64,000 nt of DNA from Gammaproteobacteria bacterium (GTDB lineage Bacteria > Pseudomonadota > Gammaproteobacteria > Pseudomonadales > Azotimanducaceae), in assembly GCA_012269545.1 (NCBI GenBank), contig JAAXKB010000037.1, forward strand, positions 21,764-85,763. Reading direction: 5' to 3'. Under the pieces are notes generated by a model that ran no database searches, was not told where the DNA came from, and saw only the letters and a list, made by a program, of their open reading frames with translations. The translations under genes and the position numbers were made by a program. This document shows positions 41,267 through 43,269 of the stretch, piece after piece; the stretch's first letter is position 1; every line of letters begins with the position of its first letter.

Positions 41267-41740
41267 CTACTCGCCCATTTGCGCCTGCACGTAGTTTTCT
41301 ATGCCCGTCTTTTCGATCAAGCCCAATTGGGTCTCTATCCAGTCCACGTGTTCCTCTTCTGAGATCAATATGCTGTTGAAAAGGTCACGGCTGACGAAGT
41401 CTCCGCAGGCTTCACAATCGACGATGGCGGCGCGAAGATCCGGCACGGCAATCATCTCAAGCGCCAGGTCACATTCGAGCATTTCTTTTACGTTTTGACC
41501 GATCATGAGTTTCCCTAAGTCCTGTAGGTTGGGCAAACCCTCTAAAAACAGAATGCGCTCGATGATGGAATCCGCATGCTTCATCTCGTCGACGGACTCT
41601 TCCATCTCCATCTTGCCCAATTTCTTCAAACCCCAATCGTCCAGCATTTTCGCGTGCAGAAAATACTGATTAATCGCGGTCAGCTCGTTCTTAAGTACGG
41701 TATTGAGGTGTCCGATGACTTTGGAATCTAAACTTTTCAT
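41267..41740 (-). CDS. bfr: bacterioferritin
   Basis: This 157-residue heme-containing iron-storage ferritin has ferroxidase ligands Glu19 ([15 protein letters not shown]), Glu52 and His55 ([27 protein letters not shown]), with Met53 as the inter-subunit heme ligand. A second Glu/His pair lies in [19 protein letters not shown]. All key positions of E. coli Bfr are kept. TAGGAG lies 8 bases before the ATG. It is divergent from bfd, with two Fur-like sites in the shared region, so iron control is likely. Confidence 0.94.
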
Positions 41741-41928: not shown

Positions 41929-42180
41929 ATGTACATTTGTTTATGTAAAGCTGTGACCGACCACGACATTGAAGCCTCCGTTTTGGCTGGAGCGCAGTCG
42001 CTATCTCAGGTGCAGAAGCAACTCGCGGTGAGCACTGGCTGCGGCCGCTGCGAATCCGCTGCCCAGCTCGTCGTCGATCAAACCTTGGCTAAGGCTGCCA
42101 GCGGGCAGTTTAACGGGTCAGGGCTTAACATCACTGAGCTGAATTCTGCTGATCTGGCCGCTCTGGTTTACGCCGCTTAA
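41929..42180 (+). CDS. bfd: bacterioferritin-associated ferredoxin
   Basis: This 83-residue 2Fe-2S protein binds bacterioferritin and reduces its core to release iron. Cluster ligands are Cys4 and Cys6 (MYICLCKAVTDHDI) with Cys38 and Cys41 (STGCGRCESAAQ), exactly the Bfd spacing. The C-terminal 20 residues (GLNITELNSADLAALVYAA) extend past the usual 64-residue E. coli length. It is divergent from bfr, as in many gammaproteobacteria. Confidence 0.93.
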   Translation: MYICLCKAVTDHDIEASVLAGAQSLSQVQKQLAVSTGCGRCESAAQLVVDQTLAKAASGQFNGSGLNITELNSADLAALVYAA

Positions 42181-42318
42181 GCCCGTTCGCTTAGTAAGTC
42201 CCGGCGCTCCCGCTGGCACTGATGCCCTACTGCCCTTGCTCTTCTTCACCGTGCCTAGTCTGTTGTCTTACAGTGCGATCTGTTAGGTTGCTGACGTATC
42301 GCAATTCTCGCTAAGAGT

Positions 42319-43269
42319 TTGAATGTGCCCAGTCGACCTCCCGTAGATTATATTGAACGCACCACAGTCCTTTATTCGAGTCTGGGGCACGCACCCTATC
42401 ATTGGGTCAGCCACACCGACCAACCCCCTTGGCATGCGCTAAATAAGCCGTTGAGTGCGTGCAAACTTGGCGTTATCGCGTCAGGTGGTATCTATCGCCA
42501 CGGCCAAGTTGCCTTTCACTACAAGGATGACATCAGCTACCGTCAAATTCCGGTATCAACTGCAGCAGACGAACTGCGCATAACACACTTTGCCTACGAC
42601 CTCAGCGCAGCGCGCACCGACCCCAACGCCGTGCTGCCACTGCAGGCTCTGAATGAATTGGTCGATAGAGGCCGCATCAGTGCCCTTGCGCCGAATGCGC
42701 TGACGTTTATGGGCGGGATTTATTCCGCGCGTAAGGTGCGCGATACGCTAGCGCCGGCCTTGGTTGCTGAACTGCAAAAAGACGAAGTAGATCTCGCGCT
42801 GCTGATCCCGGTCTGACCCGTCTGTCATCAGTCCGTCGGACTGATCGCAAGAGCTCTTGAGGTTGCGGGAATCGCTACTTTGAGTTTGTCCAGTGCCCGC
42901 TCCATTACGCAGTCGGTTGGCACACCACGGGCCCTGTATTTGGACTATCCTCTTGGCCAGACAGCCGGCCGCGCCGGGGATTTGGATGAGCAACGTCAAA
43001 TTTTGGAACTCGCTTGCCATAGCTTTGAAAACATGAGCCATCCCGGCAGCATCGTCGATCTGCCCATGCGTTGGTCCGAAGACGATGCTTGGAAGGACAT
43101 GGTCATGCGGCCACACACTGAGAATGACGGCGAGCTATCCGATGATGCCAGCGTGCTGGCCGGAGACCAGCGCAGGGAGCGGTATGACACGCCTCAGTAT
43201 CAGCATGCCGAAGACGCCTTGACGGCAGACCCAAACTGCCCAACCTGTATTTTTCTGCCGCAGGACTAG
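42319..43269 (+). CDS. GrdB-like selenoprotein (glycine/sarcosine/betaine/D-proline reductase family), in-frame TGA = Sec
   Basis: One 316-codon frame runs from TTG 42319 (GTG 42325 is an alternative) to TAG 43269, interrupted only by TGA at 42814-42816, codon 166. Before it lies HFAYDLSAARTDPNAVLPL, TFMGGIYSARKVRD and LALLIPV; after it PVCHQSVGLIARALE, LSSARSIT and YLDYPLGQTAGR. Both halves belong to one GrdB/PrdB-like protein. The TGA falls in a U-P-V-C motif, the redox-active selenocysteine site of the family. A bacterial SECIS-like hairpin follows at 18 nt. In Clostridia such proteins cleave glycine, betaine or proline; in this apparently aerobic host the substrate is unknown. Ordinary gene callers would report two truncated genes here. 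selA, selB and selD are not in the window. Confidence 0.85.
42827..42845 (+). promoter_or_regulatory. bacterial SECIS-like hairpin downstream of the UGA
   Basis: ATCAGTCC (42827-42834) and GGACTGAT (42838-42845) form a perfect 8-bp stem closed by the loop GTC. The loop begins 18 nt after the TGA and its first base is G. Both points fit the known rules for bacterial SECIS elements, in which a G near the start of the apical loop and a short fixed distance allow SelB to bind. It is coding sequence as well. Confidence 0.75.

Follow-up and report, generated by a model that had tools for sequence, protein, structure and literature searches.

A probable PrdB-like selenoprotein in a gammaproteobacterial genome with no match for PrdA/GrdE, GrdA, or PrdC

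Introduction

In both D-proline reductase and glycine reductase, the amine is activated by a pyruvoyl group before a selenol attacks. The subunits of both enzymes are laid out in a review (PMC13188914) that, like another (PMC9312934), classes PrdB as D-proline reductase. The PrdB name is also established for marine DNA. Selenocysteine (Sec)-containing PrdB with a UxxC motif was reported from the Sargasso Sea in 2005, where its 42 genes made it the third most abundant known selenoprotein family and where the D-proline function was assigned by homology (PMC1088965). Later, 235 PrdB members were counted in GOS (PMC2398784), and the name “proline reductase” is also found in PMC9402790, PMC5029168, and PMC1794560. 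Surveys of sea-water DNA place PrdB with the commoner selenoproteins (PMC1088965, PMC2398784, PMC9402790).

Here, we analyze a PrdB-like gene within a 64,000-nucleotide stretch of gammaproteobacterial DNA (the window, to which all plain coordinates refer). An earlier note on this DNA, made from its letters alone, had read two short open frames as one selenoprotein.

Results

A single frame, 42319-43269, is interrupted only by a TGA at 42814-42816. Its read-through product has 316 residues with Sec at position 166 in the motif U-P-V-C-H-Q, which places the TGA at the U-x-x-C position, as the earlier note had it; the program-made list of open reading frames begins a second frame at 42880. The start is more likely GTG 42325 than TTG 42319, to judge by an AAGAG 7 nt upstream of the former and by an ATG at the same place in the relatives L031 and L032 (comparison by eye), and the predicted protein would then have 314 residues with Sec164. 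Residue numbers used here (Sec166, Cys169, Cys307, and Cys310) count from TTG 42319. The parts of the locus are as follows.

41267-41740, minus strand: bacterioferritin (TIGR00754, 237 bits)
41929-42180, plus strand: BFD [2Fe-2S] bacterioferritin-associated ferredoxin-like protein, the upstream neighbor on the same strand; lineage-specific
42313-42317, plus strand: AAGAG, probable ribosome-binding site 7 nt before GTG 42325, from sequence reading
42325-43269, plus strand: coding sequence of the PrdB-like selenoprotein, GTG start (alternative TTG 42319), 314 residues including Sec; from the frame, the family matches, and homologues aligning across the TGA
42814-42825, plus strand: active site Sec-Pro-Val-Cys (TGA CCC GTC TGT), with TGA or Cys at the same site in homologues
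42827-42845, plus strand: bacterial SECIS-like hairpin with an 8-bp stem and a 3-nt GTC loop, the loop G lying 18 nt after the TGA
43237-43248, plus strand: C-terminal Cys-Pro-Thr-Cys, residues 307-310, a dithiol conserved in the subclade of the window gene

L031 is 81% identical to the window gene, and the two differ at codon positions 1/2/3 in 18/9/67 cases before the TGA and in 22/16/56 downstream of it. This third-position bias on both sides indicates that the downstream half is under selection as protein and, together with a PrdB model that crosses the TGA (see below), bears out the proposal that the codon splits one conserved frame.

Homologues aligning across the TGA with Sec or Cys, for which the earlier note had suggested a search, were found. 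Among the best 80 of 567 confirmed named loci, 57 have TGA at the aligned codon and 23 encode Cys there, and all 30 loci obtained by genome search (L111-L140, including the window's own gene as L111) have TGA. Every one of the 110 loci L031-L140 has TGA or Cys at one same site. The genome itself (G000) carries four genes of the PrdB-like family, each with TGA at this site. The three other Sec genes are located at C18:8135ff, C30:94.4 kb, and C43:88 kb (loci L025, L026, and L027; here, paralogues C18, C30b, and C43). Paralogues C18 (426 residues) and C30b (405 residues) extend about 180 residues past the PrdB-like core, without a Pfam match in that extension. By eye, the neighbors of the three paralogues include TetR-like regulators, TauD-like dioxygenases, sulfatases, and an SSS-like symporter.

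When our genome was combined with those of 57 relatives, 35 of the 58 had a family match: 34 of the 37 belonging to its genus, itself counted, and 1 of the 21 from elsewhere in the order. The three genus genomes with no match (G007, G012, and G015) are each 64-70% complete. There are up to seven matches per genome and 114 altogether, of which 107 contain exactly one TGA and three an additional stop; the remaining four are short, end before the Sec site, and have no TGA. The position of the TGA within these matches was checked for loci L031-L140 and the own copies.

The Sec machinery, whose absence the earlier note had listed first among the findings that would refute its reading, is present in the own genome, with selA (518 bits), selB (406 bits), selD (260 bits), and tRNA-Sec, the selC product (72.4 bits), all above cut-off. 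A selA match accompanies the family gene in 29 of 35 genomes (two of the 29 being partial and below cut-off) and occurs in 4 of the 23 genomes that lack the gene; the six gene-bearing genomes without selA are 58-96% complete and consist of 80 to 520 contigs. In one relative, G057, the family gene adjoins selA in divergent orientation. The selD gene (G000:C34:734-1639, locus L014) lies inside a 742-residue open frame whose N-terminal half resembles, by eye, an NADH dehydrogenase-type flavoprotein, i.e., a SelD fusion.

The hairpin that follows the TGA largely separates Sec genes from Cys genes. Of seven fixed pairs, at least six are kept by 71 of 73 distinct Sec sequences versus 4 of 23 distinct Cys sequences (Fisher p = 3e-14, a value that ignores relatedness), a set drawn from 111 of 112 matches (96 distinct) and containing none of the three own paralogues. 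With sequences restricted to those encoding the peptide HQT, the figures are 18 of 19 Sec versus 3 of 19 Cys. Covariation was followed in 17 hand-chosen sequences, namely, the window, C18 (two letters short), and 15 others, with C43 and C30b left aside: 99.2% of the cells pair, and double changes occur at five of the seven pairs, two of which owe the change to C18 alone. None of 500 shuffles of this alignment attains any of five measures, and slid versions of the hairpin pair at 13-43%. C18 and C30b each form a hairpin at the matching distance from the TGA, with quite different letters, GTN as the loop, and 6/7 pairs; C43 forms 5/7.

The folding energies of the window are modest, with z-scores of -2.20 (40 nt), -1.27 (50 nt), and -0.30 (71 nt); another fold has the minimum energy in both longer pieces, while the centroid retains the hairpin. 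A control by synonymous recoding, run on the same 111 matches, left the energies of Sec and Cys genes unseparated (p = 0.15), its codon pool being biased in that it came from the same region. An Rfam search of 42700-43000 returned no SECIS family and one chance match at E 7. The comparative evidence suggests that the hairpin at 42827-42845 serves UGA decoding via SelB.

In family searches, Pfam GRDB (PF07355) covers about residues 40-162, with an E value of 5e-7 for the read-through product and 9e-8 for the first half alone; the score is 29.7 bits against a cut-off of 22, and the match is limited to the last third of the model (219-344 of 347). Among NCBIfam models, PrdB (TIGR04483) fits best; it spans the TGA (residues 30-252) and scores 155.8 bits, short of its equivalog cut-off of 300 bits. 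The GrdB-type models NF040795, NF040794, TIGR01918, and TIGR01917 all remain below cut-off at 35-47 bits (TIGR01918, 37 versus 65). On these profile scores, the nearest characterized relative is PrdB rather than GrdB; thus, the earlier assignment to one selenoprotein of the GrdB/PrdB superfamily stands, but the closeness to GrdB that it implied does not. The residues His170, Gln171, Arg178, Glu181, and Pro203-Arg204 are conserved beside the cysteines.

A tree was built from 78 of the 112 sequences (34 near-duplicates were dropped by choice) under LG+G4, with a short search and a long-branched GrdF root. It unites the six PrdB rows (SH-aLRT 99) apart from the stand-alone groups; the deep branching order is weakly resolved, and the tree program warns of long branches. 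Subclade 1, to which the window protein belongs, comprises 43 rows, all with Sec. Subclade 2 comprises 23 rows, 15 with Cys and 8 with Sec, the own paralogue C43 being one of the latter. Further stand-alone groups are the C18/C30b pair and a group of three sequences, L083:7995-8807, L084:7995-8807, and L140, that read U-P-L-D-H-Q (here, UPLD). These have Sec without the resolving Cys, thereby indicating that this Cys is not universal in the family. In L083 and L084, the UPLD gene lies about 5 kb from a UPVC paralogue. The Sec and Cys states on the tree require three changes, one of which is presumably a Cys row within PrdB. The closest named relatives, among the best 80 of 567, are marine metagenome-assembled genomes (MED810, 81%; K189A clade, 70%), and the host is therefore probably a marine gammaproteobacterium.

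The window protein ends in C-P-T-C-I-F-L-P-Q-D. A CxxC motif within the last 50 residues is found in 55 of 57 distinct sequences of the subclade-1 core. Membership of this core was set by hand, with 33 of the 57 placed by the tree and the others by exclusion. Elsewhere, none of 43 sequences has the motif, of which 10 belong to the alphaproteobacterial branch of subclade 1, 30 to subclade 2, and 3 to the UPLD group. The two exceptions in the core are L128, whose end letters look foreign, and L073. A tail of this kind is also missing from C18, C30b, and C43, the own paralogues. Because it is missing from the other subclades, the alphaproteobacterial branch, and the own paralogues, the tail is inessential to the chemistry of the family.

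An AlphaFold2 model based on 64 sequences has a mean pLDDT of 93.0 and a pTM of 0.92. Residues 261-290 form a weak linker (pLDDT of 71, 56, and 78 for successive tens), and residues 291-310 return to 97-98. Among solved structures, phmmer found no match up to E 10, and a profile search found one chance match only (E 2.3). Foldseek likewise gave none at E ≤ 0.001; its best row, at E 0.014, is a phage protein, and the next are dihydroxyacid dehydratase-like chains with a TM of about 0.3 or less and E > 0.001.

The earlier note had seen no partner subunit nearby, and for PrdA/GrdE, GrdA, and PrdC this holds genome-wide. PF09338, which covers PrdA/GrdE and kin, has no match in 13 genomes (the own and 12 of the genus), while both controls, the PrdA-bearing records of pTG1 and P. 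acidaminophilum (W01 and W02), match, the latter at 258999-260039 just before its prdB. In six genomes each, GrdA (PF04723) and PrdC (TIGR04481) likewise gave no match, again with matching positive controls. The description of the protein as stand-alone is therefore apt with respect to PrdA/GrdE, GrdA, and PrdC but not in the sense of a lone gene, as there are four copies in the genome. On these absences, assignments to glycine reductase and to D-proline reductase were considered and rejected. The aerobic appearance of the host, which the earlier note had remarked on, is supported by a haem-copper oxidase of the COX1 type (547 bits), by NqrB, NqrE, and NqrF of Na+-NQR (all above cut-offs), and by PhyH.

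Gene neighborhoods vary and disclose neither a partner nor a substrate. Among 108 adjacent genes of stand-alone loci (of 116, called with a home-made ORF caller, near-duplicate loci omitted), no Pfam family occurs more than 6 times, and the commonest (enoyl-CoA hydratase, ferritin, DUF2799, and AzlC, up to 6 of 108) probably owe some of their recurrence to related genomes. The synteny with bacterioferritin (Bfr) and Bfd is lineage-bound: a Bfd gene on the same strand, no more than 1.7 kb upstream, accompanies 12 of 52 loci L031-L082, 17 of 25 loci L112-L136, and 0 of 28 loci L083-L110, some organisms occurring in both of the first two sets. Genes intervene between Bfd and the family gene in, e.g., L037, L048, L054, L061, and L082. 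In a Rokubacteria locus (L104:4413-9502), the gene appears, by eye, to be flanked on the same strand by genes resembling acyl-CoA dehydrogenase and enoyl-CoA hydratase, which could point to a CoA-linked pathway. In Roseomonas haemaphysalidis (L141:8968-11353), a Cys homologue lies tail to tail with an annotated protein adenylyltransferase SelO.

Discussion

UGA 42814 is almost certainly decoded as Sec. TGA is normally a stop, and the frame list does show a second frame from 42880, as it would if a pseudogene, a sequencing error, or two separate proteins lay behind the interruption. However, the same TGA recurs in 57 of the best 80 of 567 confirmed named loci and in all four own copies, purifying selection acts on both sides, the hairpin covaries, and the genome has the Sec machinery, which together leave a true stop next to no probability. 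Two separate proteins and a pseudogene were in fact discarded on the TGA in homologues and own copies and on the selection on both halves.

What the protein does is a matter of graded likelihood. On the comparative sequence evidence, it is a genuine selenoprotein of a stand-alone PrdB-like family. We tentatively propose, at somewhat short of even chances, that it works as a selenol/thiol reductase without a partner subunit and that the dithiol of its tail regenerates the active site. The Sec166 selenolate would attack a small, already electrophilic substrate, e.g., at a bond next to a carbonyl or at a bond of the S-S/S-O type, and for such a substrate no pyruvoyl partner would be needed. An Se-S bond would then form between Sec166 and Cys169, to be reduced by Cys307-x-x-Cys310 on its flexible linker, and the tail dithiol would in turn be recharged by thioredoxin or glutaredoxin. 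In class I ribonucleotide reductase, a C-terminal cysteine tail recharges the active site in a comparable way. The tail CxxC could thus replace PrdC or GrdA by carrying electrons from thioredoxin, and the several copies per genome, with their differing neighborhoods, may be paralogues for different substrates.

A D-proline reductase function is very unlikely because no pyruvoyl (substrate-activating) subunit was found in the genome. That the protein is nevertheless the PrdB subunit of a true D-proline reductase, with a distant or unrecognized PrdA, would agree with its best family match (PrdB, 155.8 bits), with the UxxCH active site that it has in common with Terrisporobacter PrdB, and with the name used in marine surveys (PMC1088965, PMC2398784); yet the score is barely half of what the 300-bit cut-off demands, PF09338 is found in 0 of 13 genomes while the controls match and PrdC in 0 of 6, and the protein belongs to a separate clade, has an additional C-terminal tail, occurs with up to seven matches per genome, and is found in a host with its own oxygen-reducing oxidase, all of which makes this a very poor prospect. 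More probable, but still unlikely, is an antioxidant that detoxifies peroxides or disulfides, with UxxC used as in peroxiredoxin-like or thioredoxin-like families. Marine selenoproteins commonly have UxxC as a thiol-redox motif (PMC1088965), the host has an oxidase, and the tail CxxC would suit coupling to thioredoxin. Against it, the Foldseek search of solved structures was empty at E ≤ 0.001, although such a miss is no proof, and the conserved His170, Gln171, Arg178, Glu181, and Pro203-Arg204, together with the several paralogues, would suggest a specific substrate.

The position of Bfr and Bfd directly upstream invites the idea of an electron relay for iron release or storage, and Bfd does precede the family gene in part of the two sets named above (12 of 52 and 17 of 25 loci). 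Its absence from all 28 loci L083-L110, the intervening genes in several relatives, the opposite strand of Bfr, and the lack of Bfr, by eye, beside the own paralogues nevertheless make such a relay improbable. Much the same low probability attaches to a role of the UxxC site in binding or transferring selenium or a soft metal instead of reducing a metabolite. A Sec/Cys pair is able to bind soft metals, and the homologue in G057 adjoins selA; but this is a single case of adjacency, the own paralogues lie near catabolic-looking genes (by eye), and Cys versions exist.

For the partner-free reductase, comparison with the literature limits what is new. The PrdB of the marine surveys (PMC1088965, PMC2398784) resembles the window protein in Sec, UxxC, the PrdB/PF07355 assignment, marine origin, and abundance, and it is probably the same family, matched on name, motif, and habitat. 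The family itself is not new, since a Sec-PrdB with UxxC was already published in 2005 (PMC1088965). The earlier note's “different, undescribed redox job” is thus wrong in that the family had been described, whereas a different reaction is what we, too, would infer. The accessible portions of the open-licence marine PrdB surveys and reviews make no mention of a missing PrdA in aerobes or of the tail CxxC, which may be described elsewhere. It is possible, though rather doubtful, that the abundant marine family, under the “proline reductase” label for twenty years, represents a new class of single-protein reductase that uses GrdB/PrdB selenol chemistry without a pyruvoyl partner, with a C-terminal dithiol shuttle in one branch and with paralogues multiplied for reductive steps in aerobic catabolism. 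The PrdB name implies proline reduction, a reaction known from anaerobes; if the enzyme acts alone on another substrate, the wrong reaction has been credited with a sizeable share of the selenium used in the ocean. The question is open to test because Bradyrhizobium and Rhodopseudomonas, which can be cultured, have Cys versions.

Among known systems, PrdB (TIGR04483; Terrisporobacter, Peptoclostridium, Enterococcus, and Ligilactobacillus) belongs to the same superfamily, two of its members being 30% and 33% identical to the window protein. PrdB and the window protein both have Sec in UxxCH and share invariants such as Pro203-Arg204, Gly213, and Gly217, but the motif is UGTCHR in PrdB and UPVCHQ here, and PrdB, with about 240 residues, ends after the core, whereas the window protein has a longer C terminus with the tail CxxC. 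Furthermore, prdB is clustered with prdA (in the annotated loci L143, L147, and L148, prdA is upstream of prdB with one small gene between), whereas the window genome is without PrdA. The component B proteins GrdB, GrdF, and GrdH (PF07355, TIGR01918) have a homologous C-terminal part with Sec at the same place; however, they have about 430 residues against 314-316, and the window genome has no match to PF09338 or GrdA. Cys homologues of Alphaproteobacteria, annotated in Roseomonas haemaphysalidis and Haematobacter massiliensis as “glycine/sarcosine/betaine reductase selenoprotein B family protein,” belong to the same stand-alone family, with CPVCHQ or CPICHQ as their motif. Their hosts we take to be aerobic. 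They differ from the window protein in having Cys for Sec, a hairpin of at least 6/7 pairs in only 4 of 23, and no tail CxxC, and they group with the own paralogue C43, apart from the window protein.
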